35,056 bases of DNA from Thiohalobacter sp. (lineage in GTDB: Bacteria > Pseudomonadota > Gammaproteobacteria > DSM-19610), in contig JALSRZ010000162.1 in the NCBI GenBank assembly GCA_026984515.1, positions 1-35,056 of the forward strand. Reading direction: 5' to 3'. Shown one piece after another: positions 4,704 to 33,849 of the stretch. The notes below the pieces were generated by a model. That model did no database searches, had not been told where the DNA came from, and saw only the letters and a program-made list of their open reading frames with translations. The translations under genes and the position numbers were made by a program. Every line of letters begins with the position of its first letter. Position 1 is the first letter of the stretch.

Positions 4704-4738
4704 GCGGCTCGTCCCCCTGCACTGGATTCAGGCCAGTG
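4693..4738. terminator. Hairpins between convergent comF and DUF1501-like gene
   Basis: Two small inverted repeats lie at the junction of the two convergent genes. GGGGAC (4693-4698) pairs with GTCCCC (4711-4716) across the comF stop. CACTGG (4720-4725) pairs with CCAGTG (4733-4738). No T-run follows on either strand, so these are weak candidates for a bidirectional terminator. Confidence 0.3.
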
Positions 4739-6320
4739 GCCCGAAAGCGGTCAGACTGTCGAGCAGCACTGCGCTGGGATTGGTGCCAAAGCCGGTAAAG
4801 AGGCTGGAGAACTGGCCAATCTGACCGGTCATCGACATGTAGTTGAGCAGAACCGTCTCCACCAGCAAGTTGACGTTGTTGGCAGCCGGGCTGGACGAGG
4901 TGATCACCGATCCGTCACCACTGAACGCACCGATCTGGCGGCGCAGCGCCGTGACACCGTTCGGGTTGTACACCAGGATGAACGAAGCCGCGGTAGAGGA
5001 GTTATCACCGGTCCACACGCCTTTGCCACGGCCGGCCGTCGAATTATCCACGGTACCGTTGCTGGCCAGGGAGCCGTCACTGAACACATAGATCATCACC
5101 GGGTTACCCACCAGCGCGGCGTATTCCAGACAGGCACCGATACAGCGCCCGGCCCTCAGGTCGCGGGTTTCACCGGTTGAACGGTCGCCGGTATGGTAAT
5201 CGTAGCCACCCATGGCGATGGTTCCGGCACCGGCATTCCCGTCGATGACCATTTTCATCACCGATGCGGTTTTCTGAAACTCGCGGTCGTTGTCGAACTC
5301 GGCTGCGGTAAAGATACCGCCACGAATCCGGGTGTCGCCCGCCGGGTCCACGGGAACCCCGGCAAACCGGTCTGCGATATCGGCGGCCTTCAGGTAACCA
5401 CAGCGCACCAGGTCCTTGATCACCGTGTCGCTGGAAAGCCCGGTGGTCACGGCCCCCAGCTTGCTGTTACTGACGCGCGCCACTGACTCCATGACGGATA
5501 CCACGTCCTGTTCGCTCAGGATCGCGGTCAGATCACCGGTATCCACCATGCCGGTCACATCACTGGGACGGTCCACCTTGCTGGGCCGGATGGTCGGGTC
5601 GATCATCATGGCCGGGGCCATCGAGTTGCCACCCGAATCAGAGTTGCGGGAACCGATCAGCGTCACCACGCTGCCGTCACCACCGGCCCTGGCGATACCG
5701 TACATGGGATTGTGCGGGTTGTTACCGGTGTCATTTCCCGAACGGGCTGGAATCACCACGCCATCCACGTTGGCCGGTCTGGCCACCACCGTCGGCGCGC
5801 TCGCCACCATCCCGCGCAGGAAAGCACTGTCGGAATGAAAAGCCAGCCCGAAGGTGGTATCGGTGAAATCCCCGTTACTGGTACCGGTAGCAGACGGGGT
5901 TGCCTCGGTCCCGCCCGGGATCATGTCCCCCGGCAGACCCAGCTTGCTGTAACCGGCCGTGGTCAGAAAATCCATCTGGGTGTCGCGGCCGACCAGTACA
6001 TTGGAACCGGCAATATTGGCGCCACCGGCCAGGTCGAAGCAGATAAAAGGCAGGGGATTGGAACCGGTGCCACCCAGCGAACAACTCGGGTTGCCACCGG
6101 CATCGCGCAGCGAATTGGCCAGCGCGATCAGGTCCGGCGACAGTCCGTGCGAAGCGTGCGCCCGGGAACTGGCCAGCAGACTGAGCGCCGAACCACCGAG
6201 CGTCATACCCATACCGGAAAGAAAGCCCTGGGCCAGGAAATCACGCCTCGTTACCGGGCGCGCATGATCCCGGTGCCTGAGCGGCGCGTCCGGGTGCAGA
6301 GGTTGTTTACGTTTAGCCAT
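4728..6320 (-). CDS. Tat-exported DUF1501-like protein
   Basis: The 530-residue protein starts at the ATG at 6320, which has a GAGGAAG ribosome site; six upstream codons are not needed. The twin-arginine signal is clear: TRRDFLAQGF around residues 24-33, then a hydrophobic stretch ending in SSRAHA. This means export in folded form, probably with a cofactor or metal. The start of the mature part (DLAGGANIAGSNVLVG, SNGDF) and GYDYHTGD followed by an ARAG-type segment resemble the DUF1501 family, a sulfatase/alkaline-phosphatase-like fold. In planctomycetes such proteins are encoded next to heme/LamG proteins. Here the next gene upstream is exactly such a heme/LamG protein, 42 bp away, and the three minus-strand genes look like one operon. 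The reaction is unknown. Confidence 0.75.
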   Translation of the reverse strand: MAKRKQPLHPDAPLRHRDHARPVTRRDFLAQGFLSGMGMTLGGSALSLLASSRAHASHGLSPDLIALANSLRDAGGNPSCSLGGTGSNPLPFICFDLAGGANIAGSNVLVGRDTQMDFLTTAGYSKLGLPGDMIPGGTEATPSATGTSNGDFTDTTFGLAFHSDSAFLRGMVASAPTVVARPANVDGVVIPARSGNDTGNNPHNPMYGIARAGGDGSVVTLIGSRNSDSGGNSMAPAMMIDPTIRPSKVDRPSDVTGMVDTGDLTAILSEQDVVSVMESVARVSNSKLGAVTTGLSSDTVIKDLVRCGYLKAADIADRFAGVPVDPAGDTRIRGGIFTAAEFDNDREFQKTASVMKMVIDGNAGAGTIAMGGYDYHTGDRSTGETRDLRAGRCIGACLEYAALVGNPVMIYVFSDGSLASNGTVDNSTAGRGKGVWTGDNSSTAASFILVYNPNGVTALRRQIGAFSGDGSVITSSSPAANNVNLLVETVLLNYMSMTGQIGQFSSLFTGFGTNPSAVLLDSLTAFGPLA

Positions 6321-6362
6321 GGTTAGTCTTCCTCGCACTTTTTCGGTTTGCCTGCCACATCA

Positions 6363-9020
6363 CTACTGCACCAGCATCGCTGCGCTGGCCAGCGTGGCCG
6401 CACACATGGACTTGACGACCGTCCGGGTCCGCACGGCGTCACAGCCGGAATCACCCGGGTTGACACAGCTACCCGCCAGTTTTTCGAACAGGTTGTTGGC
6501 ATTCACGCCATTGGGGCCGATCAGCTCTGCCTTGAGCTCCGAACGCAACGGCGCACTCAGCAACTCATTACCGCCACCGGCCGATGGTATGCCTACGATA
6601 CGGTCGTACAGCGCGTCGAGAATCCGGTTCTTTTCCGCCGAATCACCCGCGGCCGTATTGAATGCCGTCACCACAGGGGCGGTAAAGAAGGCATCGCCCG
6701 CGGCCGTACTGCCGAAATTGAAGAAACCGGCACGCAGCGAGGCATCGTCCACCAGGCTGGAACAGTAGGCGATCGCCAGTTGCGCAACCGCCATCTGGTG
6801 GGCCGACAGGAAGCCCTGCATGTCCTCGACGGACGGGAACTGACGCCGCAGCGTGTCGAAGGTCGTGCTCACCGACTGCTCGCTCACACCGGTAGCCGCG
6901 GCCATGGTGGCATTGATCTCGTCGAAGGTACGCACACCGATGTCGGAGACCTGGGCCGGCGCCGGTACATTCGGTACCGGAACCGGGGTCTCCGCTGGCG
7001 GGATGTTGCTGGCGCTGCCGAGCACTTCGAAAGTGAGGAAGAATTCATCCGTGTCCGGCCCGTTTTCCAGCGGAATAATGGTACCGATACTGGACAGCAC
7101 CTGACCGTTAACCGGGTCATAGGAGGCATCGGTAATGCTCAGGTCCAGGTTGCGGTAAGCCTGCCCGACGCTCGCTTCCCGGCCGTTGATACCGATACTC
7201 ATACCCTTGAGCGGAATAGTGCCTGGCGTCTTGTTGGGGTCCAGGTTGATGTAGGTCGGCTTGTCGAACAGGTAGCTGTAGCTGTCATACTGTTCCACCG
7301 AGAACATAATGTAACTGTCGGCGGGCACACCGGCCACATCACCGATCGAGAACAGCAGGAAGAATTTTTCGCCCACGCCAACGTCAAAGTTCTGCTGGAT
7401 CTGCTCCTGTGTCAGCGCGCGATTGTGAATGGCCACCATGCGGATGGTGCCCTGCCACTGCCGGTCACCGGATACTTCATTACCCAGCACCAGGGCAAAG
7501 GTATCGTCCCAGTCATTGAGATTACCTGCCGGCACAGGATCCATATCGTCAGTGAACACGCCATTGACGTAGATACGCCGTCCGTTCAGCGGATCGAAAG
7601 TAACCACCACGTGCTGCAACGTGGCCTGCAGGTCTTCATCCGCGTCAGCGGTCGACAGCATGGGCTCGCCATTCCCGTCCGTGGTGCTGGAGCGCTGCAT
7701 GAAATCATAGTTGTACTGGGTCTGGCCCAGCGTGAAGTTACGCGCCGTGGTACCCGCCGAATAGCTGACGATACGCGCCGGACCCTCCTGGGTGACGTTG
7801 GCAGGGGCCACCCAGGCCTCGATGGAATATTCACCGGTCGAGGTAATCAGGTCACGCAGCTTCTTGCTGCTGGTGGTAGAGCCCTGGGCACGCCCGTTGG
7901 TGATACTGATGCCCCAGCCACCGACCCAGTCGATATCGCCGGAGGTATCGGGATCCGGGCTGAGCGTCAGGTTCAGGTCCGGTGCGACACCACTGCTGTC
8001 GATGGCCACGTTGCCGCTGCCGGTCTTGAATTCGTACAGGGCAATGATGTCTTTTTCGTAGCGGTTACCGCCCGACGCAACTACCCCGTCGGCCAGCGTC
8101 AGGGCCTTGCTGAACACGGTTGGCGCCTGCACCGAATTCGGAAGTATGGGCGGGGAACCCGCGATCATGGCCACGATGGCGGCTTCCATGGTTGCCCCGT
8201 CGGCGACACAGTCTGCCGGCGCTGCCCCGGTCCAGCAGTTATGGAACTGGTCGCGCAGGCGAATCACTACCCGCGATGAAGCCGGGTCGTTCAGGTTGAT
8301 CTTGGATTTAATGGCCTCGTAGGCTTCGTCCACGTCGTCGCTGGCAAAGTACGGCTGCTGTTTGGTCGCGGACGAATCGATATGGCAGTTGACGCACTGC
8401 GCGGTTCCCCTCACCAGCGGCCAGACCGTGGATGCGAAGGCAGTCTCGGCAGCCGTGGCGGGAAAGGTCAGGGTAGCGCCGGGATCCTTGATCACCGGGG
8501 CCGTGAGCAGAATCTGTTTGCCGCCGCCGGCCGTGCCGGCCGCCCAGTCCTGGATATAGCCGGTAATCGCGGTTGCGCAGGCCGCGGGGCTGGATACCCA
8601 GCAGTTGTGGCCTTCGGCTACCTTGGTCACCAGTCGCGAAGCGGCGGGGTTGTCCAGGTCGATCAAGGGGTTGGCCGCGGCATAGGCGTCATTGACGTTG
8701 TCGTCGCGCACAAACATCGGCGTCTGTCCCACAGTCGGGCTGTGACACGCCCCGCACTTGGTGGGTACCCGCAGGGGTTCCCAGACATTCACCTGGAATG
8801 CACGGATATCGGCGGTCTGGGCGTTCGGCCCGGTATAGGCGGAGATACCCAGATTGCCGGTGTTGTTCGACAGGCCGGCAGTCGGATTGGTTTCGGTAGA
8901 CGCACCGCCACCGCAGGCACTCAGCAACATGGCTGCCAGCAGGCATACCGTACATTGCAGAACCACACGCAGCGCACCACGGTCGCCGGCTGCTGACAGA
9001 AAATCGATGGCTGGATTCAT
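6363..9020 (-). CDS. Secreted diheme lipoprotein with LamG domain
   Basis: Start chosen at the ATG at 9020 with AAAGG six nt upstream, giving 885 residues. A lipoprotein signal ends in LLSACGGG, so Cys36 would be lipidated. Two consecutive repeats of about 90 residues follow. Each has a c-type heme site (CGACH at 89-93, CVNCH at 209-213), a D(D)xV(D/N)xAY segment, an LxDPASSR-like segment and a HNCW motif. Residues about 325-550 form a concanavalin/LamG-like beta-sandwich (YSIEAWVAPANVT, ATLQHVVVTFDPLNGRRIYVNG, VAIHNRALTQEQI). The C-terminal third has a linker rich in Pro and Val and then a helical domain with further cysteines. It probably sits on the outer membrane and carries electrons or binds a polymer. 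It lies 26 nt after the monoheme gene and 42 nt before the DUF1501-like gene. Confidence 0.8.
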   Translation of the reverse strand: MNPAIDFLSAAGDRGALRVVLQCTVCLLAAMLLSACGGGASTETNPTAGLSNNTGNLGISAYTGPNAQTADIRAFQVNVWEPLRVPTKCGACHSPTVGQTPMFVRDDNVNDAYAAANPLIDLDNPAASRLVTKVAEGHNCWVSSPAACATAITGYIQDWAAGTAGGGKQILLTAPVIKDPGATLTFPATAAETAFASTVWPLVRGTAQCVNCHIDSSATKQQPYFASDDVDEAYEAIKSKINLNDPASSRVVIRLRDQFHNCWTGAAPADCVADGATMEAAIVAMIAGSPPILPNSVQAPTVFSKALTLADGVVASGGNRYEKDIIALYEFKTGSGNVAIDSSGVAPDLNLTLSPDPDTSGDIDWVGGWGISITNGRAQGSTTSSKKLRDLITSTGEYSIEAWVAPANVTQEGPARIVSYSAGTTARNFTLGQTQYNYDFMQRSSTTDGNGEPMLSTADADEDLQATLQHVVVTFDPLNGRRIYVNGVFTDDMDPVPAGNLNDWDDTFALVLGNEVSGDRQWQGTIRMVAIHNRALTQEQIQQNFDVGVGEKFFLLFSIGDVAGVPADSYIMFSVEQYDSYSYLFDKPTYINLDPNKTPGTIPLKGMSIGINGREASVGQAYRNLDLSITDASYDPVNGQVLSSIGTIIPLENGPDTDEFFLTFEVLGSASNIPPAETPVPVPNVPAPAQVSDIGVRTFDEINATMAAATGVSEQSVSTTFDTLRRQFPSVEDMQGFLSAHQMAVAQLAIAYCSSLVDDASLRAGFFNFGSTAAGDAFFTAPVVTAFNTAAGDSAEKNRILDALYDRIVGIPSAGGGNELLSAPLRSELKAELIGPNGVNANNLFEKLAGSCVNPGDSGCDAVRTRTVVKSMCAATLASAAMLVQ

Positions 9021-9046
9021 GATACCTTTCCCCTGTTCTTGTCCTG

Positions 9047-10267
9047 TCAGTTGCCCATGCACAACGTGGCAGCCCTGGCAAAGACCTGTTTCAGGCTTTT
9101 GTTGTTGCCGTTGTAATCAACCAGCATGGTATCCACCTGGCCCTGGTCGGGATCGCCCAGGCAAACCGTTCGGTAGACCTTGGTCACCTGGCAACGCTCG
9201 AACGCCACACTGTTGGCCAGTTCGTCGCCCATGCTGGCCGCACCGCTGCCACTGCCGCTGCCGCCCGGACCACCGCTGGCCCAACCCAGGTTGGAGTTGG
9301 GGCCGCTGCGCCAGTAGTTATCCCAGTTGTCATTCGGCGTCACATAGCCTGGTTTGAAATTATCCGAGTTGATCAGGTACTTGGGCTGCACCGCATTGGG
9401 TGTGTACACCAGCTGGCCGGCATCCTCGTTGCCATCCGGGTACACGTAATCGTAGTAGGCGAAGGCCTGCACCATGGGATCCATACCGGAATGGCAGCCG
9501 ATACAGCTGTTCATGAAAATACGGCTGTCGCCACCCGGACTGCGACTGACATCCTGGCGAACACGATCAGCCGTTCGGGTCGGGTCCTCGACTTCCTCCA
9601 TGTCCTTGCACAGATGGTTCAGCATGGCGAAGCGGAACATGGCGCGGTTGGTGCCGTCGATAAAAAAGGCACGTGCCGCAGCGCGGGTGGTGAACGCACC
9701 GGCCGGCGCCGCAATGGCCTGTGGCACCTGGACAAATTTCGAGCTGTCACCAAGATCGACACCGCTGGCTTCCAGCTCTTCATAGTGATTGTTATTGGTG
9801 GGCGAAACCGGGCTCAGGCCCAGCGAACCGGCGCCCGCATAGGTGAAAGGAACGGAAAAAAGCCGGTTGAAAGGCACCTCATCGCGCACCATACCGATTA
9901 CCAGCGCCGTGTAATCGTTGAGGGGCGCAAATACATCCTGTGCCTCGTTGGTCCAGGGTGTGGCAAAGTTCTTCAGGGTGACATTGTAGAAATACTTTGC
10001 ATTCTGCGGATTGTCGGCCGGGTCAATGGCCATCAGGGCCGCCGTCTTGGGATCACCCATGGCCGCTTCCATGGCATCCAGCACGGCGGCCGTCGGCTGT
10101 ACGCCGGTCAGGCGGTCGTGCATGCGCTTGGCCTTTTCCCGGTCACCCGCCAGCGCGGGCGCGGTCAGCACCAACGCCATCATGCCCGCCGCCAGACTGA
10201 GCCGGTACCGCTTCCCCCGTGTGCCCTCCCGGCAGACTGCAGGTTGTTTGTGCGCTGTCTTCGTCAT
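9047..10267 (-). CDS. Secreted monoheme protein, DUF1585/DUF1588-like
   Basis: The 406-residue protein has a cleavable signal peptide (basic KRYRLSLAAG, hydrophobic core MMALVLTAPALA, cut near residue 40). One c-type heme site, CIGCH, is at residues 255-259 in SCIGCHSGMDPMVQAFAYYD. That context, a C-x-x-C-H-x-x-x-D-P segment followed by an aromatic-rich stretch, is like the DUF1588/DUF1585 proteins that accompany DUF1501 proteins. A Gly/Ser linker (GGPGGSGSGSGAAS) precedes a short Cys-containing C-terminal domain. It is the first gene of a minus-strand operon of three and is divergent from the large diheme gene at 10747. The heme site and export are clear from sequence; electron transfer is the likely role but the partner is inferred. 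Confidence 0.75.
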   Translation of the reverse strand: MTKTAHKQPAVCREGTRGKRYRLSLAAGMMALVLTAPALAGDREKAKRMHDRLTGVQPTAAVLDAMEAAMGDPKTAALMAIDPADNPQNAKYFYNVTLKNFATPWTNEAQDVFAPLNDYTALVIGMVRDEVPFNRLFSVPFTYAGAGSLGLSPVSPTNNNHYEELEASGVDLGDSSKFVQVPQAIAAPAGAFTTRAAARAFFIDGTNRAMFRFAMLNHLCKDMEEVEDPTRTADRVRQDVSRSPGGDSRIFMNSCIGCHSGMDPMVQAFAYYDYVYPDGNEDAGQLVYTPNAVQPKYLINSDNFKPGYVTPNDNWDNYWRSGPNSNLGWASGGPGGSGSGSGAASMGDELANSVAFERCQVTKVYRTVCLGDPDQGQVDTMLVDYNGNNKSLKQVFARAATLCMGN

Positions 10268-10746: not shown

Positions 10747-13700
10747 ATGTTGAATCTACGCGACAGAAAATGGGCGATCACGGCCGGCAGCACGACGCAC
10801 CTGCTGACAGGGGTATGGCTGCTCGCCAGCACGCTGCTCACCGCTTGCGGTGGTGCCGGGGGCGGCGGTGGCAGCACGGGTAGCGGCCTGGCGCCCCTGG
10901 TCGCCGACCTGGGCATTGCCTACGTGCGGCAACCGGTACCGGCCATGGATGACGCGGATGTCCGCGATCCCGCCGCGTTCACACCCGGGGGCGAACTGAT
11001 CTACCGCGACCTGGCCTCGCCCATTGCCAACGAACGTAATGTAACGGCCGCCCTGACCGGGACAATGGGTGACGTCAAGGACGTCGAAATATCCTACGAC
11101 GGCACCAGACTGCTGTTCGCCCTGCGCCTGCCGGATATCGAGAATGCCGCGCCCGAGGATCAGCCCACCTGGAACATCTGGGAATACGACATTGCCGCGG
11201 ACACCCTGACACGCATCATTCAATCCGACCTGCTGGCTGAAGAAGGGCAGGACATCGCGCCGCACTACCTGCCGGACGGCCGGATCATTTTTTCATCCAC
11301 GCGCCAGCGTACATCCAAAGCCATGCTGGTGGACGAGGGCAAGCCCCAGTTTTCAGCACTGGACGAAAACCGCCGGACACCGTCCTTTGTGCTGCACGTG
11401 ATGGATGCAGATGGTACCAATATCAAACAGGTCACCTTCAACCAGAGCCATGACCTGGACCCGGTGGTACTCGAAAGCGGTGAAGTGGTGTTTTCCCGCT
11501 GGGACAATGCCGGCAGCAACGATGCGGTCCACCTGTACAAAATGAACCCGGACGGCACCAACCTGCGGCTGCTGTACGGTGCCAAAAGTCACGATACCGG
11601 TACCGATGGCGCCATCATCCAGTTTACCCAGGCGCGCGAATTCCCGGACGGTTCGATCATGGCGCTGATGAAACCCTATACCGGCGCCTACCAGGGGGGT
11701 GACATCATCAAGATCGACACCGCCAACTATGTCGACAACAGCCAGACCACCGCCATCAACCAGGGCATCCTCAACGGACCTGCCCAGGTATCGATGGGTT
11801 TCAATCCCGTTCGTTCAGACAATATGCCCTCGCCGGGAGGCCGGTTCACTTCTTTCTACCCGTTCTGGGACGGGACCAACCGGGCGCTGGTGGCCTGGAG
11901 CCCATGCCGCCTGCTGGAAAACAATGTCATTGTGCCCTGCACCACGGAGCGTCTTGCCAGTCCGACAGTGGTAGAGGCACCGCCCCTGTACAGCGTGTAT
12001 CTCTACGACATGGATGAACAGACGCAGCAACCGATATTCATTCCGCAGGAAGGTTTCCTGTACCGTGACGTGGTTGCCGCCCAGCCCCGGCAGCTGCCCT
12101 CGATCCGTTCAGACGGACAGGCGCCGGCAACCACAGGCTATGACTTCGATCCGTCGCTGTTGAGCGAAAACACCGGTATTCTCGATATCCGCAGCGTGTA
12201 CGATTTCGACGGCAGCTTTAACAGCTTCGGCTCGGCTGCCACCGATATCGATACACTGGCCAACCCGGCACTGACCCCGAGCGCGGACAACCGGCCGGCC
12301 CGCTTCCTGCGTATCGTCAAGCCGGTCAGCATACCGCCCCGTGACCTGGTGACCCTGCCCGGCACGGCATTCGGCCGCAGCGTCGGTCAGTTGATGCGGG
12401 AAATCATCGGTTACGCGCCCATCGAACCGGACGGTTCGGTTCGGGTCAAGGTGCCCGCCAACACGCCCTTCGCCATCAGCGTGCTGGACAAGAACGGCAA
12501 ACGCATCAGCAATCGACACCAGAACTGGTTACAGCTCCGCCCCGGGGAAATACTGACCTGCAGCGGTTGCCATGCCGCAAACGCCGGCGTATCGCACGGC
12601 AGAAGCGACCTTTTCACACCGTTGTACAGCGGGGCCCCCATCGACGGTTACAGCTTCAACGGTTCAACCCTGTTCGGCAATTTCGGTGATACGATGGCCG
12701 AAGCACGCACACGCCTGGATAGTACTGCGCTGGACCTGTCCGGGGACATCATCTATTCGGACGTCTGGTGGGCAATAGACACACCCTTTGATTACAGCTA
12801 TGCTGATTTAAATGATGACGTTGTCGACCCGACCATGGATGCACTGCTGACACCGCCAGTTGCCACAGCCTGCCTGGCCAGCTGGTCCACGAACTGCCGG
12901 ATCACGATCAACTACGAAACCCATATTCACCCCATCTGGAGCAAGAACCGCGGTGCCGGCACCTGCACCAACTGTCACAGCAACGTGGACCGCATGACCG
13001 GCAACCCGATGGTACCGGCCGGGCAGCTGGACCTGTCCGACGGACCCGATCAGCAGGTTCCCGATCATTTCAAGTCATACCGCGAACTGTTCTTCCCGGA
13101 CAACGCCCAGAGCCTGGACGCCAACGGCCAGATTCTTGACCAGGTGCAGGCTACGGATGCCGCGGGCAATCCCCTGTTCCAGCAGGCCAGGGACGCCAAC
13201 GGCAACCTGCTGTTCAAACAACTGACGGACGCCGGCGGCAACCCGCAGTTCATTCAGGCAACCGACAACGATGTCCTGCAGCTCGATGCCGCCGGCAACC
13301 CGGTGCTGGGACCCGTCATGGCACCGGCAACCGACGCGGCCGGCAATCCACTGCTCGTGCAGGACATCGACGTCAACAATAATCCCCTTTTTGACCCGGT
13401 CACCGGCAACCCGATCATGATACCCGCCTTCACCACCAGCACGGACAGCAACGGGAATCCGCTGCTTATGCAGGACTTCGTGGCAAGTGGCGTACCGCAG
13501 TTTGACCTGATTACCGGCAACCCCATCCTGAGGCAGGCTGTCGATGCCGGCGGAGTCCCGATGGTCGATGCCAGTGGAAACCCCGTGTTCATACCGGCAC
13601 TGATACCCTATATGGAACCGGTACTGATCACGGTGAATGTTCCGCAGGTCATGTCCGTTAACGGGGCACTGGCCAGTACTCGCTTCTTCAGCCATTTCGA

Positions 13701-13818
13701 GGACCCGGCCGACACGGATCACTTCGGCACCCTGTTGCCGTCGGAGCTGAAACTGATTGCCGAATGGCTGGATATAGGCGGACAATACTACAATAACCCG
13801 TTTGCTGTTCCCCAGTAG
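10747..13818 (+). CDS. Large diheme lipoprotein, hydrazine-synthase-alpha-like (PD40 repeats)
   Basis: The 1023-residue protein has a lipoprotein signal with lipobox LTAC (Cys34) followed by a Gly/Ser linker. Residues about 80-330 contain propeller-type repeats (DVEISYDGTRLLFA, HYLPDGRIIFSSTR, HVMDADGTNIKQVTF, YKMNPDGTNLRLLYG) of the PD40/TolB kind. A middle domain with SVRVKVPANTPFAISVLDKN and HQNWLQLRPGEILTCSGCH carries heme site one (605-609); this block is characteristic of proteins related to the hydrazine synthase alpha subunit. Heme site two, CTNCH, is at 740-744. An odd repeat block (about 799-958) follows, then a C-terminal EWLDIGGQYYNNP segment. True hydrazine synthase comes from anammox bacteria. 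Nothing here indicates hydrazine chemistry, and I read it as a surface-exposed electron-transfer or oxidase protein. The start has no strong ribosome site. Confidence 0.75.
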   Translation: MLNLRDRKWAITAGSTTHLLTGVWLLASTLLTACGGAGGGGGSTGSGLAPLVADLGIAYVRQPVPAMDDADVRDPAAFTPGGELIYRDLASPIANERNVTAALTGTMGDVKDVEISYDGTRLLFALRLPDIENAAPEDQPTWNIWEYDIAADTLTRIIQSDLLAEEGQDIAPHYLPDGRIIFSSTRQRTSKAMLVDEGKPQFSALDENRRTPSFVLHVMDADGTNIKQVTFNQSHDLDPVVLESGEVVFSRWDNAGSNDAVHLYKMNPDGTNLRLLYGAKSHDTGTDGAIIQFTQAREFPDGSIMALMKPYTGAYQGGDIIKIDTANYVDNSQTTAINQGILNGPAQVSMGFNPVRSDNMPSPGGRFTSFYPFWDGTNRALVAWSPCRLLENNVIVPCTTERLASPTVVEAPPLYSVYLYDMDEQTQQPIFIPQEGFLYRDVVAAQPRQLPSIRSDGQAPATTGYDFDPSLLSENTGILDIRSVYDFDGSFNSFGSAATDIDTLANPALTPSADNRPARFLRIVKPVSIPPRDLVTLPGTAFGRSVGQLMREIIGYAPIEPDGSVRVKVPANTPFAISVLDKNGKRISNRHQNWLQLRPGEILTCSGCHAANAGVSHGRSDLFTPLYSGAPIDGYSFNGSTLFGNFGDTMAEARTRLDSTALDLSGDIIYSDVWWAIDTPFDYSYADLNDDVVDPTMDALLTPPVATACLASWSTNCRITINYETHIHPIWSKNRGAGTCTNCHSNVDRMTGNPMVPAGQLDLSDGPDQQVPDHFKSYRELFFPDNAQSLDANGQILDQVQATDAAGNPLFQQARDANGNLLFKQLTDAGGNPQFIQATDNDVLQLDAAGNPVLGPVMAPATDAAGNPLLVQDIDVNNNPLFDPVTGNPIMIPAFTTSTDSNGNPLLMQDFVASGVPQFDLITGNPILRQAVDAGGVPMVDASGNPVFIPALIPYMEPVLITVNVPQVMSVNGALASTRFFSHFEDPADTDHFGTLLPSELKLIAEWLDIGGQYYNNPFAVPQ
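13140..13620 (+). repeat. Degenerate GNP-repeat region in the diheme lipoprotein
   Basis: The codons here spell about nine imperfect repeats of 14-20 residues around a core (T)DAxGNPLxxQ, for example TDAAGNPLFQQ, RDANGNLLFKQ, TDAGGNPQFIQ, TDAAGNPLLVQ, TDSNGNPLLMQ and VDASGNPVFIP. They sit between the second heme site and the C-terminal domain. Such Asp/Gly/Asn-Pro turns suggest a stack of beta-hairpins or a flexible spacer, possibly calcium-binding. The repeats are diverged at DNA level, so this is not a recent expansion. Confidence 0.7.
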
Positions 13819-13870
13819 CCCCCGGCGGCCACCGGACCGGATTGACGTATTAAAAGGATGTAAGTACGCA

Positions 13871-14653
13871 GTGACCCGGATCACACCCTCTTTACAGTAC
13901 AGCCTGCCTGTTTTTTTCTGCCTGCTGTTTATGGCAGCTCACGCGCATGCCGGCCTGTTCGACGGGCTGTTCACAGAACAGCAGCCGATCGAGGTACAGG
14001 TTGCCGATCCCTATATCGAGCTGCACAGCGGAGCCGGCGAAGGCTACCCGGTGTTCCACGTCGAGGAAAAGGATGCGTGGATTGAAATCCTCAAGCGCAG
14101 GACCGACTGGTTCAAGGTGCGTACCGCGACCGGAAAGGAAGGCTGGGTGGCGCGTGAACAACTGGAGCGCACCCTGACGCCGGCGGGTGAATACACGGAC
14201 ATAACCGACGCAACCCAGGCGGAGTTTGCCTTCCACCGCTGGGAAATGGGCGCCATGGGCGGAGCATTCAAAAGCGGCGAAGTCATGACGGTTTACGGCA
14301 GCTTCTTCTTCATGCCCAACCTGTCCCTGGAACTATCCGCGTCAAAAATATTCTTCGACTTCTCGGACGCCAAAATGGCCGATGCCAGCCTGGTGATACA
14401 CCCCTACCCGGCCTGGCGATTCTCGCCGTTTTTCAGCATCGGTACCGGCGTGATCAAAAACGACCCCAAGCCCACGCTGGTCGAGGAAAAAGACCAGACT
14501 GACCAGCTGGCGCACGTTGGCGCCGGTCTGCGCGTCTACCTGGCGCGGCGCTTTATTTTTCGGGCACAGTACAAACACTACGTCATTTTCCAGAGTAAGG
14601 ACGACAACCAGGAGATCAATGAATGGAAAGCGGGATTCGCAGTCTTTTTCTGA
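13871..14653 (+). CDS. Outer-membrane beta-barrel protein with N-terminal SH3 domain
   Basis: Start chosen at the GTG at 13871 (260 residues): it gives a normal signal peptide (VTRITPSLQYSL..., hydrophobic core, cut after AHAHA) and has AAGGA upstream; an ATG at 13858 runs straight into a stop. Residues about 35-100 form a bacterial SH3 domain (VADPYIELHSGAGEGYPVFHV, WFKVRTATGKEGWVAREQLE), usually a peptidoglycan or protein binder. The rest alternates polar and aromatic residues and ends in Phe-Phe after GFAVFF, the mark of an outer-membrane barrel. It overlaps the next barrel gene by 31 nt. In Myxococcus, small barrels accompany the Glt machine, and the downstream Glt-like genes suggest the same role here. 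Confidence 0.72.
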   Translation: MTRITPSLQYSLPVFFCLLFMAAHAHAGLFDGLFTEQQPIEVQVADPYIELHSGAGEGYPVFHVEEKDAWIEILKRRTDWFKVRTATGKEGWVAREQLERTLTPAGEYTDITDATQAEFAFHRWEMGAMGGAFKSGEVMTVYGSFFFMPNLSLELSASKIFFDFSDAKMADASLVIHPYPAWRFSPFFSIGTGVIKNDPKPTLVEEKDQTDQLAHVGAGLRVYLARRFIFRAQYKHYVIFQSKDDNQEINEWKAGFAVFF

Positions 14654-15279
14654 ATGCGGCTGCAACACTGGCACTGGCCGCCGGCACCGCGTTCACTCCG
14701 GCGGTTGCGGTGGCGGAAGACGCGCCGGAACAGGTAATACGTCCGGAAATCGAACGTCGTGAAGTGCACGAAGCCGATATTGATACCGAGGATTTTGAAA
14801 TCGGCATATTCGGCGGCCTGATGAATGTCGAGGATTTCGGCACCAACCCGGTGTACGGCGCACGCGCGGCCTACCATGTAACGGAATACATCTTCGTCGA
14901 AGGTGCCTATGGACACACTTCCACCGACAAGAGCAGCGCGGAACGGATATTCGGAATCAACGTGCTCGGCGACAATGACCGCAACCTCGACTATTACAAC
15001 CTGTCGGTCGGTTTCAATATTCTTCCCGGGGAAGGATTCATCGGCAGCAAATGGGCATTCACTTCGGATTTTTACCTGATCGGCGGCGCCGGCAGCACCA
15101 GCTTTGGCGGTGAAGATGAATTTACCTGGAACGTGGGTTTCGGCTATCGCCTGCTGGCCAATGACTGGCTGGCATTTCGCGTCGACGCCCGGGACCATGT
15201 ATTCGATGTCAACATCCTCGGCGAATCACAGACCAACCATAACCTTGAGTTTACCGGGGGGCTGTCGATCTTTTTCTGA
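14623..15279 (+). CDS. Outer-membrane beta-barrel protein (myxobacterial-type domain)
   Basis: The 218-residue protein starts at the ATG at 14623, with AGGAG eight nt upstream. A signal peptide ends near VAVAEDA. After an acidic spacer (REVHEADIDTEDFEIG), the sequence FGGLMNVEDFGTNPVYGARAAYHVTEYIFVEGAYG starts a barrel of alternating strands. It ends in LEFTGGLSIFF, with the terminal aromatic signal for outer-membrane insertion. The pattern is that of the outer-membrane barrel domain described in myxobacteria (TIGR04565-like, from memory). It is translationally linked to the SH3-barrel gene, and the two may form a pair. Confidence 0.75.
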   Translation: MESGIRSLFLNAAATLALAAGTAFTPAVAVAEDAPEQVIRPEIERREVHEADIDTEDFEIGIFGGLMNVEDFGTNPVYGARAAYHVTEYIFVEGAYGHTSTDKSSAERIFGINVLGDNDRNLDYYNLSVGFNILPGEGFIGSKWAFTSDFYLIGGAGSTSFGGEDEFTWNVGFGYRLLANDWLAFRVDARDHVFDVNILGESQTNHNLEFTGGLSIFF

Positions 15280-15387: not shown

Positions 15388-15900
15388 ATGAATACGATGT
15401 TGAAAACCATCCGCAAGGCGGTGCGCACCGCCATCATGGGCAGCCTGCTGGTCGCAGGCACGGCGTACGCCGATATCGATGCCGGCCCGGCCCCGGACTT
15501 TACCCTCAAGAGCCAGACCGGTGAAAACCTGCGCCTGAGCGAATTCCGCGGTGAAGTCGTCATGATCAACTTCTGGGCATCGTGGTGCGCGCCGTGTCGC
15601 CAGGAAATGCCCCTGCTGGACGAACTGTACCAGCAGTACCAGCCCCTGGGCTTTACGATACTGGGCGTCAACGTCGAGGAAGATTCGACCAAAGCCCGCC
15701 AGATGCTGAAAAAGTTACCGGTCAACTTCCCGGTGCTGTTCGACAACAAGAGCAACGTCAGCAAACTGTATAACGTGGTCGCCATGCCCAGCACGGTGCT
15801 GGTCGACCGGGATGGCAATATCCGCTACCTGCACCAGGGGTATAAACCCGGCTACGAGGAATCGTACCAGCAGCAGGTCCGGGAGCTGATCAGGGAATAA
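15388..15900 (+). CDS. TlpA/ResA-type periplasmic thioredoxin
   Basis: The 170-residue protein has AGGAG ahead of its ATG, a signal peptide ending near GTAYA, and a TlpA-like fold. The active site WCAPC (Cys67, Cys70) lies in VVMINFWASWCAPCRQEMP. The cis-Pro motif AMPSTVLVDRDG appears late in the protein. Such proteins reduce disulfides in the periplasm, commonly those of apocytochromes before heme attachment or of other secreted thiol proteins. In this cluster it could act on the CxxCH proteins or on the cysteine tail of the neighbouring DUF4266 lipoprotein, which starts 2 nt downstream. Confidence 0.9.
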   Translation: MNTMLKTIRKAVRTAIMGSLLVAGTAYADIDAGPAPDFTLKSQTGENLRLSEFRGEVVMINFWASWCAPCRQEMPLLDELYQQYQPLGFTILGVNVEEDSTKARQMLKKLPVNFPVLFDNKSNVSKLYNVVAMPSTVLVDRDGNIRYLHQGYKPGYEESYQQQVRELIRE

Positions 15901-15902
15901 AC

Positions 15903-16127
15903 GTGAACTACCAGGGAATTCTTATTGCACTGACACTGTTGCTGCTGGGCGGCTGCAGCCAGGTGGAGCCGTGGGTGAAGCCCTATGAACGGGCCCATCT
16001 CGCCGACCCCGTCATGAGCTTCAGCCGGGACCCGGTGGCAGACGGTTACATCAGCCACATCTACCAGGTCAGGGAAGGCGCCCGCGGAGCAGAAGGCGGG
16101 CACGGGGGTGGTTGTGGGTGCAACTAG
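15903..16127 (+). CDS. DUF4266 lipoprotein
   Basis: The 74-residue protein has a lipobox LLGGC (Cys18). Its segments VEPWVKPYERAHLADPVMSF and the His/Gly/Cys-rich end, EGGHGGGCGCN, are those of DUF4266 proteins. The C-terminal GGHGGGCGC is a plausible metal or redox-cofactor ligand set, but no function is established to my knowledge. It begins 2 nt after the thioredoxin gene and overlaps the DUF3570 gene by 20 nt. DUF4266, DUF3570, a thioredoxin and ApbE are commonly found together, from memory, so the four probably work as one unit. Confidence 0.85.
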   Translation: MNYQGILIALTLLLLGGCSQVEPWVKPYERAHLADPVMSFSRDPVADGYISHIYQVREGARGAEGGHGGGCGCN

Positions 16128-17253
16128 GAGACACCCGGGAGCGCTACTGTCCGCACTGTTCCTCGTCAGTCATGCCGCGCCGGCCGGCGTTCTGCCGGAA
16201 GACCGGGCCGACGCGATGTACCACTCCTACGATGGCGGCGGCGTCGACGTAAGTGGGCCTTCCTACCTGGTTCGCAAGGGTGACGGCAAACGCTTTTCGG
16301 CCTCGGTAAACTACTACGTCGACAGCATCAGCAGCGCATCGATCGACGTGCTTACGCAGGGCAGCCCGTATAACGAACAGCGCACCCAGTGGACCGGCAG
16401 CGTGGATTACATCCACGCCGATACCACCATGACAGCAGGCTACAGCAACAGCGACGAGAGTGATTACCAGTCCGACACCTACAATTTTTCCATCAGCCAG
16501 GCCATGTTCGGTGACCTGACCACGGTCACGCTGGGCTATTCCTACGGGGATGACGACGTATCCAGTAACGTGGATTCATCCTTCGAACGCTCGGCGGAAC
16601 ACAGGAACTACCACGTTTCCCTGACCCAGGTGCTGACCAAAAACCTGCTGTTGAGCCTGAACTACGATGCGATCACCGACGAGGGCTTCCTGCACAGCCC
16701 GTACCGCAAGGTACGCGTCCAGAACGACCCGCTGGACCCTTCCGCCGGCTGGAACTTCAACACACCCGAAACCTACCCCAATACACGTACCAGCAACGCG
16801 GTGTCGGCAAACTTTATCTACTACCTGCCCTACCGCGCAGCGGTCAAGGCGGGTTACCGCTACTACACGGATGACTGGGATATTGATGCCCACAATGTCG
16901 AGGTCGGTTATGTACACCCGCTGTGGGACCGCTGGATTGTCGAATTCAACTACCGCTACTACCAGCAGGACCAGGCCGACTTCTATTCCGACCTGTTCCA
17001 GTTCCCTGACCAGCAGAATTTCATGGCCCGCGACAAGGAGCTGAGCAAGTTCAAGGACCAGACCCTGGGTGTAGCGCTGAGCTATGACCTGTTCGAAGAC
17101 GGCTGGGGCTACCTCGACAAGGCCACGCTCAACGTGAAATACAGTCGCATCTGGTTCGATTACGACAACTACTCGGATGCCCGTCAGGCGAATGCACCCG
17201 GTTATGACTTTACCGCCGATCTGTTCCAGCTGTTTGCCTCCGTCTGGTACTGA
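16108..17253 (+). CDS. DUF3570 outer-membrane protein
   Basis: The 381-residue protein uses a GTG start at 16108, or the GTG at 16114; both lie inside the end of the DUF4266 gene. A signal peptide spans about residues 8-27. YDGGGVDVSGPSYLVRKG and SVNYYVDSISSASIDV are DUF3570 signatures. The rest is a series of amphipathic strands with many Tyr (FIYYLPYRAAVKAGYRYY, VEFNYRYYQQDQ), and the protein ends in SVWY, as expected of a large outer-membrane barrel. DSISSAS at residues 72-78 resembles the site that ApbE enzymes flavinylate (D-x-x-S/T-G/A-A-T/S), and an ApbE gene follows 15 nt downstream. Modification of this site is my inference. Confidence 0.85.
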   Translation: MVVGATRRHPGALLSALFLVSHAAPAGVLPEDRADAMYHSYDGGGVDVSGPSYLVRKGDGKRFSASVNYYVDSISSASIDVLTQGSPYNEQRTQWTGSVDYIHADTTMTAGYSNSDESDYQSDTYNFSISQAMFGDLTTVTLGYSYGDDDVSSNVDSSFERSAEHRNYHVSLTQVLTKNLLLSLNYDAITDEGFLHSPYRKVRVQNDPLDPSAGWNFNTPETYPNTRTSNAVSANFIYYLPYRAAVKAGYRYYTDDWDIDAHNVEVGYVHPLWDRWIVEFNYRYYQQDQADFYSDLFQFPDQQNFMARDKELSKFKDQTLGVALSYDLFEDGWGYLDKATLNVKYSRIWFDYDNYSDARQANAPGYDFTADLFQLFASVWY

Positions 17254-17268
17254 CCGGCGCATACCATC

Positions 17269-18282
17269 TTGTACACGCTAAGCCTTTTCCTCTCGCTGCT
17301 GGTCATTACGGTCCCCGTCAGCGCCGGCTGGCTGAAAGAAAATGCAGATATCATGGGTACCCGGATCACCGTGGAACTGTTTCACCCGGACCCGGCCGTT
17401 GCCCGGCAGGGAGTAGACCGGGTACTCGCGGAGATGCGCCGTATCGACCACGCAATGAGCCCCTACCTCGCCACCAGCGAACTGGCACAGCTGAATATCC
17501 GCGCCCGGCAACACGCTTTCGCGGTCAGCGATGAACTGTTCACCCTGATTCAGCGTGCGCAGGATTTCTCCGACCTGACCGGCGGCGCGTTCGATATCAC
17601 ATTTGCCAGTGTCGGTTTCCTGTATGACTACCGCAAGGCCATCAGACCCGATGCCGCCCGGCGCAAGAAGGCTGCCGCATTGATCGACTACCACAACCTG
17701 GTCATGGACAAGGACCGGCATACGGTAGCTTTCAGCACACCCGGCGTACGTATCGATCTGGGAGGCATCGCCAAGGGATACGCCGTGGACCGCTGTATCC
17801 GGCTGCTGCAGGACATGGGTATCCGGCAGGCACTGGTCACCGCCGGTGGCGACAGCCGCATCATTGGCGATCGCTGGGGCAGGCCCTGGACCATCGGCAT
17901 ACGCGACCCAAGAGAGGCCGACAAGATGGTTGCGGTGATTCCCCTGATGGACGTCGCCGTATCGACATCGGGAGACTATCAACGCTATTTCGAGGAAGAT
18001 GGCGTGCGTTACCACCACATTATCGATCCGCAGTCCGGTGACTCCGCCCGCGAACTGCGCAGCGTCACGATCATCGCACCGGATGCAACCACCAGCGACG
18101 CCCTGTCCACCAGCGTGTTTGTACTGGGCACCAGGGCAGGCCTGGCGCTGGTCAACCGCTTGCCGGGTATCGATGCCATCCTGGTGGACCGCCACGGTGA
18201 ACTGCATTATTCGGACGAACTGCAACCGGCCGAAGCGGCAGGTGAGCGCCACGCAGCCGCAACCCGGACATCCGCGCACTGA
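17269..18282 (+). CDS. apbE: ApbE-family FAD:protein FMN transferase
   Basis: ApbE transfers FMN from FAD to Ser/Thr of exported proteins, making covalent flavoproteins. The 337-residue product has a signal peptide (MYTLSLFLSLLVITVPVSAG). The motif MGTRITVEL is at 29-37, TGGAFDITFA near 104-113, DLGGIAKGYAVD at 163-174 and AGGDSRIIG near 192-200. The Mg-binding region DATTSDALSTSVFVLG is at about 272-287. The start at 17269 is a TTG without a clear ribosome site; no ATG or GTG fits the signal peptide, so low or coupled translation is likely. Its partner is expected nearby, and the adjacent DUF3570 protein is the best visible candidate. Confidence 0.9.
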   Translation: MYTLSLFLSLLVITVPVSAGWLKENADIMGTRITVELFHPDPAVARQGVDRVLAEMRRIDHAMSPYLATSELAQLNIRARQHAFAVSDELFTLIQRAQDFSDLTGGAFDITFASVGFLYDYRKAIRPDAARRKKAAALIDYHNLVMDKDRHTVAFSTPGVRIDLGGIAKGYAVDRCIRLLQDMGIRQALVTAGGDSRIIGDRWGRPWTIGIRDPREADKMVAVIPLMDVAVSTSGDYQRYFEEDGVRYHHIIDPQSGDSARELRSVTIIAPDATTSDALSTSVFVLGTRAGLALVNRLPGIDAILVDRHGELHYSDELQPAEAAGERHAAATRTSAH

Positions 18283-18561: not shown

Positions 18562-19086
18562 ATGAAAGCATTACTCAGGGGAATTCTGACCGGCTTGCTG
18601 GTCTGGCCTTTACTGCTTGCCGCAGAAACCGCCGCACCGCCGGAAAAGGGGATCAGTGACGATGTCCAGACCCTCAAGCAACAGGTACTGGAACTCAACC
18701 GGGACCTGTTCCTGCTCGAGGAAGAACTGCTGTTCCCCTCCAACACCCAGGTCTCGGTATTCATCTCCCTGAACGTAGGAGAGTTCTTCAAACTCGATTC
18801 GGTAACACTCAAGATCGACGGCAAGGAAGTCGTGGACTACCTCTACACAAAGCGCGAGCTTGACGCTCTGGCACGCGGTGGCGTGCAACGCCTGTATATC
18901 GGCAACTTGCGCACCGGCGACCACGAGCTCGTTGCTTTTTTCGTCGGCAAGGGTCCTCACGACCGGGATTACAAGCGCGGGACCACGATGACTATCAACA
19001 AGGGCCTCGGTCCCAAATACGTTGAACTGAAAATCGTCGACCAGACCAGCAACTTTCAGCCCGGGTTTGAAGTCAGGGAGTGGTAA
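18562..19086 (+). CDS. Periplasmic coiled-coil protein, first gene of the Glt-like operon
   Basis: The 174-residue protein starts at an ATG with GGAG upstream and has a signal peptide ending near LLLAAETA. A heptad-like segment (DVQTLKQQVLELNRDLFLLEEELL) at about residues 32-57 predicts a coiled coil. A compact beta-rich domain follows (VSVFISLNVGEFFKLDSVTLKIDG, GVQRLYIGNLRTGDHELVAFF, YVELKIVDQT). I do not recognise the family by name. Its stop codon overlaps the start of the next gene as TAATG. The coiled coil and beta domain suggest an adaptor in a periplasmic complex. Confidence 0.75.
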   Translation: MKALLRGILTGLLVWPLLLAAETAAPPEKGISDDVQTLKQQVLELNRDLFLLEEELLFPSNTQVSVFISLNVGEFFKLDSVTLKIDGKEVVDYLYTKRELDALARGGVQRLYIGNLRTGDHELVAFFVGKGPHDRDYKRGTTMTINKGLGPKYVELKIVDQTSNFQPGFEVREW

Positions 19087-20966
19087 TGCCGAAGCGCCTG
19101 CTTCATTTTTTTCTGTTCTGGGCGTGCCTGGCGGGAAGCGCCGGGAGTGGTGCCGTGTCGGTAAAACCACAGGAGGTTCTCGACCTGCACTACGGGGAAG
19201 TCCTGTTTCACTTCTACCAGAACGACTACTTCACGGCCATCACCCACCTGCTGGCCGCACAACAACGCAACCAGCTGCCACATCACCGGCAGGAAGCAGA
19301 ACTGTTGCTGGCCGGCCTGGAACTGTCCTACGGCATGCTCGACCAGGCGCAGGCCCGCTTCGAACGCCTGCTGGACCAGGATACCGACAGGGAATTACGC
19401 AACCGGGTCTGGTACTACATTACCCGCATCGCCTACCAGCGCGGCCGCCACCATCAGGCGATCGAGACGCTGAAGAAAATTGAAAAGCCGAGGGACAAAA
19501 ACATGCGCGCAGAGCTGGCGCTGCTGAATGCCAACCTGCACATGGAAACGGGGCAGAACGAGGAGGCCGCCAGGATACTGAAGCAAGCCTCTGTTCCCGA
19601 ACGCTGGGAAGACTACCTGCGCATCAACCGGGGCATTGCCCTGTTGCGCGCCGGTAAAGTAAGGGAGGGTCAGGCCATACTGGACAAGCTGGGCGACCAG
19701 CGCGCCGATAGTGAAGAGCTGCGCGCCCTGCGCGATCGTGCCAACCTGGGCCTGGGCTACGAACTGCTGCGCAAGGGCGATGGCGAACAGGCCCGCAAGT
19801 ACCTCAACCGGGTTCGCCTGCAGGGTCCGTTCATGCAGGCTGCGTTACTGGGAGCCGGCTGGGCCGATACCGAGCGCGGCGATTACGAACAGGCGCTCAC
19901 TCCCTGGCTGGCGCTCATGAAACTGTCCGGTCATGATGCCCCGGTGCAGGAAGTGCACCTCGCTGTCCCCTATGCCTTCAGCAAGATCGGCGACAACCAG
20001 CGCGCCAAATACTTTTACAAGCAGGCGCTGGATTTCTATGACCGGGAACAACAGTACCTGGCGGATGCCATCCAGGCTGCACGCTCCGGTGCGCTGGTCT
20101 CACTGCTGAGCCAGACAGACAATGACGCGGGGATATCCGGCGGCTGGCTCAATGCGCACCCGACCCTGGAAAACGTACCCTCCGGACGTTACCTGGTGGA
20201 CATATTGTCCGGGCATCCATTCCAGGAAACCCTGAAAGACTACCGTGACCTCGATTACCTGGAACAGCTGCTGCATAACTGGCTGAAAAATATCAGCCTG
20301 TACCATGACATGGTCGAGGCCCGGCGACTGGCGTATGAACAGCGTGCACCGCGGGTCAGGCAACGCCTGGGTCAGCAGGAGGCGGCCGCCCTGCGCCAGC
20401 GCTGGCAGCACTTTCAGGACCTGGTCCAGGAAGAACACCAGAACGGTGACCCGCTGCACCTCGCCACGAGCAAGGAAAAGCAGCAATGGAAAACCCTGCA
20501 GGACATACAGGAAAAACTGACATCCCTCCCTGGCGAACCGCGCTACCGGAAGATACAGGAACGCGCACGCTGGCTGCAGGGTACCCTCTACTGGCAGATT
20601 CAGTCGGATTACCGGGTGCGACTCCGCAAGGCAGAAAAGCAGATCCGGGAACTCGACACCCTCACCGGCGAAGCCCTCGCCAGGCACAGGCAGGTCAGCA
20701 CTGCGCTGGCGGACGTCAAGGCGGGCTTCGACGGCTTCGATACACGCATCGCAGCCCTGCGTCAGCGCATCCTGGCGCTGTTGCCGGGTATTGACATGGC
20801 ACGCAGGGATGCCGGTGAACACCTGCAGAAACTCGCGCTCAAGGAACTGGAAACCCGCCGGCAACGACTGTCCAGCTACCGGCTGCAGGCACGTTATGCG
20901 CTGGCACGCAGCTACGACCAGGTTTCGCAGCAACCCGGGACAAGCGGGGATGGAGTACAGCAGTGA
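19086..20966 (+). CDS. Periplasmic TPR protein (GltC-like by context)
   Basis: Start taken at the ATG at 19086 (626 residues), overlapping the previous stop; a GTG two codons upstream is possible but the ATG has GGGAG at good distance. A signal peptide (MPKRLLHFFLFWACLAGSAG) is followed by TPR-type helical pairs to about residue 330 (LHYGEVLFHFYQNDYFTAITHL, LELSYGMLDQAQARFERLL, ALLGAGWADTERGDYEQAL, KIGDNQRAKYFYKQALDFY). The second half is long, charged and helical, with coiled-coil character up to the end. TPR proteins of this size with a TolQR motor and TonB-like protein recall the Glt gliding machinery, where they span the periplasm. Homology is by architecture and context only. Confidence 0.8.
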   Translation: MPKRLLHFFLFWACLAGSAGSGAVSVKPQEVLDLHYGEVLFHFYQNDYFTAITHLLAAQQRNQLPHHRQEAELLLAGLELSYGMLDQAQARFERLLDQDTDRELRNRVWYYITRIAYQRGRHHQAIETLKKIEKPRDKNMRAELALLNANLHMETGQNEEAARILKQASVPERWEDYLRINRGIALLRAGKVREGQAILDKLGDQRADSEELRALRDRANLGLGYELLRKGDGEQARKYLNRVRLQGPFMQAALLGAGWADTERGDYEQALTPWLALMKLSGHDAPVQEVHLAVPYAFSKIGDNQRAKYFYKQALDFYDREQQYLADAIQAARSGALVSLLSQTDNDAGISGGWLNAHPTLENVPSGRYLVDILSGHPFQETLKDYRDLDYLEQLLHNWLKNISLYHDMVEARRLAYEQRAPRVRQRLGQQEAAALRQRWQHFQDLVQEEHQNGDPLHLATSKEKQQWKTLQDIQEKLTSLPGEPRYRKIQERARWLQGTLYWQIQSDYRVRLRKAEKQIRELDTLTGEALARHRQVSTALADVKAGFDGFDTRIAALRQRILALLPGIDMARRDAGEHLQKLALKELETRRQRLSSYRLQARYALARSYDQVSQQPGTSGDGVQQ

Positions 20967-23758: not shown

Positions 23759-24335
23759 AACGCTCGTCACGGGCCTGGCCCTCCTGTTGTTGCTGGGCGG
23801 CTGCAGCAGTACTGCCACGCGTGACGGGGACAGCGGACAGGCTGCCAAACTGCCGCGCGACTATGACCAGGCGCTGCTACTGATGCAAAGCGGTGACTAC
23901 GGGGCTGCCATTCCCGTACTGCAGGCCTTCATCGAACAGCAGCCGCAACTCGCGGGTCCGCACCTCAACCTGGGCATCGCCTACCGGAAAGTCGGCGAAC
24001 CCGCTGCAGCCGTGACCGCCCTGGCGAAGGCGGCTGAACTGAACCCGGACAACCCGGTCATCTACCAGCAACTGGGTATCAGCTACCGCGAACAGGGCCG
24101 CTTCGAAGCCGCACTGGACGCGTACAAAAAGGCACTGAAACTGGATCCGGCGTATGCGCTCGCGCACCGCAATATCGGCATTCTGTATGATCTCTACCTG
24201 CGGCAACCGGCGCTGGCACTGCAACATTACCGGCGTTACCTGGAGCTGATCGACGAACCCGACCAGACGGTCGAACGCTGGGTAGTGGACCTGGACCGCC
24301 GGACCGGCACTGCCAGCGCGAGGTCGACACCATGA
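23739..24335 (+). CDS. Small TPR lipoprotein (GltE-like by context)
   Basis: The gene uses a TTG start at 23739, inside the previous gene, preceded by a strong GGGGGAAG ribosome site; no better start exists before the signal peptide. The 198-residue product has lipobox LLGGC (Cys23) and then four TPR units (ALLLMQSGDYGAAIPVLQAF, PHLNLGIAYRKVGEPAAAV, IYQQLGISYREQGRFEAAL, AHRNIGILYDLYLRQPALAL). It ends within 4 nt of the next start. Such short TPR lipoproteins usually act as outer-membrane assembly adaptors. Confidence 0.82.
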   Translation: MSPHCSKTLVTGLALLLLLGGCSSTATRDGDSGQAAKLPRDYDQALLLMQSGDYGAAIPVLQAFIEQQPQLAGPHLNLGIAYRKVGEPAAAVTALAKAAELNPDNPVIYQQLGISYREQGRFEAALDAYKKALKLDPAYALAHRNIGILYDLYLRQPALALQHYRRYLELIDEPDQTVERWVVDLDRRTGTASARSTP

Positions 24336-32286: not shown

Positions 32287-32311
32287 GGCAATCGCCGGAT
32301 GCGTGTGCCCG

Positions 32312-33761: not shown

Positions 33762-33849
33762 GGCTCCGGCGATGTATTTTCCGACAATCGGGCTGATCCT
33801 TTCAGTCTGCTTCCGGGTGGAATTCCAGGTTCATTTTTGCAGATGATCC

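Follow-up and report, generated by a model that had tools for sequence, protein, structure and literature searches.

Three described systems bear on the locus considered here. The first is the hydrazine synthase alpha subunit, HzsA, of Kuenenia stuttgartiensis (PDB 5C2V), which has a three-domain fold and two c-heme sites. Tyr591 of HzsA ligates heme alphaI, and a zinc is held by Cys303 and by His587 of the first CxxCH motif (PMC12607021, PMC12758564). Heme alphaII is bis-His ligated, with His689 as one ligand (PMC12607021) and His772 as the distal ligand (PMC12758564). HZS-like genes have also been reported outside anammox, mainly in Planctomycetota and Desulfobacterota, and these accounts deal chiefly with alpha genes that have beta-gamma homologues beside them, from Planctomycetota and a small number of other groups (PMC10732223, PMC12758564). 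The second is a flavinylation set of DUF3570, DUF4266, thioredoxin-like and ApbE genes, with 316 clusters without DsbD (PMC8238504). The third is the Glt/Nfs core, a complex whose function in Gammaproteobacteria is given as unknown (PMC3169522, PMC3858216), while the Agl-Glt/Nfs machines move glycan strands at the surface (PMC3858216).

Relatives of all three lie in the window, i.e. the whole 35,056-nucleotide stretch of Thiohalobacter sp. contig JALSRZ010000162.1 (assembly GCA_026984515.1) that was analysed. This one locus joins three questions, namely the role of HzsA-like proteins outside anammox, the purpose of DUF3570-type flavinylation, and the role of a Glt core that is found here in Gammaproteobacteria without documented gliding. 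HzsA-like proteins outside anammox, the flavinylation set and the Glt core were each known already; the linkage of the three appears to be new. A literature search, outside which most subscription papers lay, turned up one paper with DUF3570 or DUF4266 and none that connects HZS-alpha proteins with flavinylation or with Glt genes, so an earlier description is possible. A first-pass annotation had called the role of the protein family undescribed, which overlooks the reported HZS-like genes outside anammox and agrees with the papers found as far as the gammaproteobacterial cluster is concerned. The conserved block of flavinylation and Glt/Nfs-core genes, also overlooked there, is the strongest evidence on the HzsA-like protein. 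On balance, it seems somewhat probable that this protein belongs, as the lipoprotein that carries heme, to a conserved redox system of the gammaproteobacterial envelope that is coupled to a motor. Its task is probably to transport electrons within the envelope, and it makes no hydrazine.

The HzsA-like lipoprotein and its heme sites

The HzsA-like diheme lipoprotein (10747..13818, + strand) has 1023 amino acids and an ATG start, and was assigned using Pfam and an AlphaFold2 model. Its HZS_alpha domain (PF18582) spans residues 550-609 with E 2.2e-16 and 60.6 bits against a curated cut-off of 26.6 bits, and its lipobox (LLTAC) ends in Cys34, the first mature residue (10846..10848, +), which is invariant in 83 homologues. 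Membership of the HZS-alpha-like family and the lipoprotein anchor, both put forward in the first-pass annotation, are borne out by these results. The same annotation had proposed PD40-type repeats, and here structure and sequence differ: the N-terminal region is a TolB-type propeller in the model (TolB Z ~26, propeller only), whereas the Pfam sequence match to PD40 reaches 17.4 bits and stays under its cut-off of 20.9. Asp follows the lipid Cys in just 5 of the 83 homologues, which is consistent with outer-membrane sorting, and the lipoprotein is accordingly placed, by prediction, at the outer membrane.

The relation to the fold of hydrazine synthase alpha, also expected from the first pass, holds throughout the protein, so that the result named there as refuting, a predicted structure unrelated to this fold, did not occur. 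In a sequence profile comparison with the PDB the sole family matched was hydrazine synthase alpha (5c2v/5c2w, 6.4e-20), and Foldseek ranked 5c2v first for the model (5.7e-27). VIA-align superimposed the model on 5c2v_A with Z 33.4 and rmsd 3.8 over 602 residues, the match running from 16 to 990 in the model and from 51 to 806 in the chain, and covering three domains (propeller, middle and C-terminal heme domain). The model itself has a pLDDT of 80.7 and a pTM of 0.79 and was built from an alignment of 56 homologues from named genomes; without the alignment the pLDDT was only 34. Its main region of low confidence is a repeat-like, genus-level insert (mature residues 808-921; 13267..13608, +). 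D-x-x-GNP-type units are repeated in this insert, which in the alignment is confined to the window protein and that of locus L064, and no tandem repeats were found there at the DNA level.

The first heme site, equivalent to that of heme alphaI, is CSGCH at residues 605-609 (12559..12573, +), and the second is CTNCH at residues 740-744 (12964..12978, +). Both CxxCH motifs are, like the lipid Cys, essentially invariant in 83 distinct homologues, so the heme sites are not chance occurrences. Profile alignment places the His of CTNCH on HzsA His689, and His992 (mature residue 959; 13720..13722, +) exactly on His772 (numbering offset 27), the distal ligand of heme alphaII; each of the two positions is retained in at least 82 of the 83 homologues. 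The heme alphaI side differs. In the register of HzsA Tyr591 the window protein has Ala, and the homologues have mostly Ser, Ala, Thr or Asn, with Tyr not among the common residues. At the position of the zinc ligand Cys303 the window protein has Lys, and most homologues have His or Asn; Scalinduaceae likewise are without this Cys (PMC12758564). One branch of the family (L047, L048, L067, L070 and L073) has a C-terminal extension with a third CxxCH and is missing the conserved His after heme I.

A true hydrazine synthase alpha subunit, or an ancestral version of one that performs the same reaction, would agree with the shared fold and the retained ligand positions of heme alphaII, and this reading is nevertheless extremely improbable. 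It is contradicted by the ligand map, with no Tyr at the 591 position and Lys at the Cys303 position. The score against the anammox equivalog NF052339 is 54 bits, far from its cut-off of 800. No HzsB/C-like or HAO/HDH-like genes are present among the annotated window genes, in agreement with the earlier remark that neither hydrazine synthase beta/gamma nor hydrazine dehydrogenase is encoded nearby. The genome has two CCP_MauG matches, whose open frames measure 349 and 395 amino acids, too short for a fused beta-gamma protein. A genome search with HAO-type Pfam models gave no match, nor did it in any control genome, so that this negative carries no weight by itself. Hydrazine synthesis by the window protein was rejected on ligands, equivalog score and partners, which upholds the first-pass view that this is not its chemistry, and HZS_alpha matches should not be taken as signs of anammox.

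Compared with HzsA, the window protein is further distinguished by being a lipoprotein, by its C-terminal repeat insert and by an extra invariant His before a Trp. The non-anammox HZS-alpha-like clades I-IV share with it the HZS_alpha domain and the loss of Tyr591 and of the zinc Cys (PMC12758564). They differ in lying beside fused beta-gamma homologues, and their clade that retains the alphaII site is without His772 (PMC12758564), whereas the window locus retains His772 and has flavinylation and Glt-core genes as partners.

The extra residue, His591 (mature residue 558, in RHQNW; 12517..12519, +), lies three residues before a conserved Trp and is present in 83 of 83 homologues, while HzsA has no His there. 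It is also missing in a small sample of five other HZS_alpha proteins (from four other gammaproteobacterial loci and one Parabacteroides plasmid), which makes it a candidate mark of the subfamily. Judged from the alignments, it is the likeliest candidate for a residue newly placed at heme I, as second ligand or on the distal side. An alternative is that the HzsA-like protein is itself an enzyme, in which heme I is catalytic and the flavin and thiol proteins merely feed electrons; His591 could then be a distal acid-base residue, as in peroxidases, or heme I could offer an open site that acts on some small nitrogen, sulfur or oxygen compound. Catalysis is supported by the retention of the HzsA fold in full, with its heme-alphaI domain, and by the invariance of His591, Trp594 and CxGCH across the 83 homologues, a degree of conservation beyond what plain electron transfer would require. 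The absence of the Tyr ligand and the zinc Cys of HzsA speaks against it, as do the contrasting loci described below, and an enzymatic role is considered unlikely, if worth keeping in view.

Redox genes and the Glt/Nfs-type core

Three genes are divergent from the HzsA-like gene. The nearest (9047..10267, -) encodes a monoheme protein (CIGCH) of DUF1585/PSCyt type, for which a PSD2 match was obtained in 15 of 21 members (best 1.1e-6). It is followed by a LamG-domain lipoprotein with two CxxCH motifs (6363..9062, -; PF13385, 1.4e-22) and by a very conserved Tat-signal protein (4728..6338, -). The Tat protein has no Pfam match, and its profile comparison with DUF1501 is full-length but weak (probability 51%, E 1.6e-4), so that "DUF1501-like" is used here as a lead only.

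Downstream of the HzsA-like gene, which stands at the head of the block, the genes on the same strand mostly overlap or nearly touch as far as ApbE. The first encodes an SH3-domain and outer-membrane barrel protein (13802..14653, +; PF08239/PF13505), the true start of which is probably downstream of 13802, and the second an outer-membrane barrel of family TIGR04565, OMP_myx_plus (14623..15279, +; 158 bits, cut-off 60). Then come a TlpA/ResA-type thioredoxin (15388..15900, +; AhpC-TSA, 1.8e-32), a small DUF4266 lipoprotein ending in GGGCGCN (15903..16127, +; PF14086, 79 bits), a DUF3570 protein of the ApbE-substrate family (16108..17253, +; PF12094, 157.5 bits; motif DSISSASIDV) and an ApbE flavin transferase (17269..18282, +; PF02424, 3.6e-83). 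ApbE, DUF3570, DUF4266 and thioredoxin-like genes thus occur together in the window, as in the described set, and the four genes are adjacent with no DsbD among the annotated window genes, as in the published clusters (PMC8238504). The window differs from those clusters in adding HzsA-like, LamG and DUF1585-type heme proteins and the Glt core, and in its SSAS motif. At the two expected flavinylation sites the window DUF3570 protein has SGPS and SSAS, against the published [S/T]GA[S/T]; some homologues have SGAS. Because this motif is degenerate, flavinylation of the window protein is not certain. The C-terminal GGGCGCN of DUF4266 is almost invariant in 46 homologues, which exceeds the need of a plain CxC pair. 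In another genome, G029, which is without PF18582, contig C16 carries a DUF4266 gene (4482-4631) less than 1 kb from a DUF1501 gene (5407-6450).

After a gap of ~280 bp from ApbE, a nine-gene core begins with p174 (18562..19086, +), the first core-complex gene in these loci, which has no significant Pfam match. Three TPR proteins follow, GltC-like by position (19080..20966, +; TPR matches, conserved order), GltD-like by position (20963..23758, +; conserved order) and GltE-like (23739..24335, +; NF033758, 2.1e-12 and 46.7 bits, under the equivalog cut-off of 225), and then a 90-amino-acid core-complex protein with a conserved position (24332..24604, +). The run closes with an AglR-like motor protein of ExbB/TolQ type (24656..25303, +; PF01618), two AglQ/S-like ExbD/TolR proteins (25303..25833 and 25830..26348, both +; PF02472), and a GltG-like protein with an AgmX/PglI C-terminal domain (26348..27298, +; NF033768, 68 bits, cut-off 40), in which no FHA domain was found. 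The combination of an AglR/Q/S-type ExbB and two ExbD with an AgmX/PglI domain of GltG type, all in a single run, identifies it as a Glt/Nfs core, with a motor of the type that powers bacterial gliding. It shares with the described gammaproteobacterial core an operon-like run of ExbB, two ExbD, GltG-like, TPR and small genes, and the window subfamily differs in being tied to a redox module (PMC3169522, PMC3858216). Near this core lies a separate MotA/MotB-like pair (MotA_ExbB and an OmpA-domain MotB; 31216-33112, -), and near the window end Rfam places a group-II-D1D4-6 intron match (33844-34010, -; 63.7 bits vs 49).

These genes suggest an electron relay that would involve the TlpA thiol, the DUF4266 CxC, an FMN carried by the DUF3570 protein, and the hemes of two lipoproteins, the HzsA-like and the LamG one. 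These hemes would be situated at the outer membrane, and the relay might exchange electrons, in either direction, with a substrate in that membrane or outside the cell. The ExbB/ExbD-GltG motor could power a step of this process at the outer membrane, e.g. moving or presenting cargo. Gene linkage alone does not imply that electrons flow between linked proteins. A role in surface redox chemistry had been suggested for the HzsA-like protein before; the redox part fits the surrounding genes, and surface exposure is putative. More speculatively, and held only as a tentative possibility, the locus may encode an undescribed envelope-spanning machine that couples a proton-driven Glt/Nfs-type motor to a thiol-flavin-heme electron relay and has a repurposed HzsA fold as its terminal heme protein. 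If that were true, the standalone Glt core of these Gammaproteobacteria would gain a function.

The presence of a Glt/Nfs core also raises the alternative that a polymer of the cell surface is assembled or altered by the cluster, in the way that Nfs acts on the spore coat of Myxococcus, with the HzsA-like protein in a processing complex and the LamG, Tat and heme proteins processing the polymer oxidatively. Surface glycan transport by Agl-Glt/Nfs machines (PMC3858216) is a precedent, and the LamG domain, the outer-membrane barrels and the conserved Tat protein would suit polymer handling. However, no glycosyltransferase or export gene is found among the annotated genes, and plain core-complex loci without redox genes exist, from which it follows that the redox part may have a task of its own. 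A polymer-directed cluster is therefore judged improbable.

Conservation, contrasting loci and distribution

Support for a motor-coupled redox system comes from the conservation of the block in 80 named loci and 60 other gammaproteobacterial loci. The named loci include Thiogranum, Thiohalobacter, Thiodiazotropha, Sedimenticola and Lamellibrachia endosymbionts, as well as Woeseiaceae, Steroidobacteraceae and Kangiellaceae. Block content is retained while HZS identity drops to about 45-67% in most loci. The gene immediately 3' of HZS encodes the SH3/OMP protein in 77/80 named loci and in 54/60 of the others. Among the named loci, DUF4266 and DUF3570 are present in 70, the monoheme gene (cyt406) in 71 and LamG in 66, whereas the unrelated bio/comF flanks are retained in at most 3 of the 80. 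ApbE lies within the fetched stretch of only 28/60 other and 16/80 named loci, and TlpA is absent from a group of loci.

The association extends to whole genomes. PF18582 was found in 57 of 369 genomes and the core subfamily, defined by a p174 score of at least 220 bits, in 51; both occurred in 47 genomes, HZS only in 10, the core only in 4 and neither in 308 (Fisher 1e-44, a value that ignores shared ancestry). If p174 matches of any score are admitted, HZS and p174 occur together in 50 genomes, at most 26 kb apart in 38 of them and on different contigs of fragmented assemblies in the remaining 12. DUF4266 is present in 50/57 HZS genomes and 40/312 others, shared ancestry again being ignored.

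Where the p174 score is lower, the core complex stands by itself, and 10 of the 13 such complexes examined cluster together in the p174 tree. On reading these plain Glt-core loci, no common redox or other cargo was seen. Three further loci (L187-L189) have the flavinylation set and the core without an HzsA-like gene. Just upstream of the SH3/OMP gene they encode a small lipoprotein in which CX4CH, an unusual heme-type motif, occurs once or twice (in L187, region 5715-6569). One of these small lipoproteins has a weak Pfam match to a Geobacter CX4CH family. The exchange of a large diheme lipoprotein for a small CX4CH one in the same slot fits general electron carrying better than specific catalysis, a small lipoprotein being an unlikely substitute for a specific enzyme, and suggests a heme-relay role for the HzsA-like protein.

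PF18582 occurs in ~15% of sampled gammaproteobacterial genomes, mostly with the block, and these include tubeworm and lucinid-clam symbionts and sediment lineages; with this spread the role of the block could be tested in culturable relatives. Among 299 sampled Pseudomonadota genomes it was found in 10, nine of them Gammaproteobacteria and the tenth under the cut-off. One record titled "Halobacteria archaeon" (L178) carries an HzsA-like gene with an SH3/OMP neighbour and is probably a misbinned contig. The plasmid collection yielded only distant relatives, from Bacteroidota. On a Parabacteroides distasonis plasmid (L211), a single gene joins the HZS_alpha domain to a SUMF1-type enzyme and lies among YncE-family and CcsA genes, in a run that resembles an alpha plus beta-gamma arrangement.
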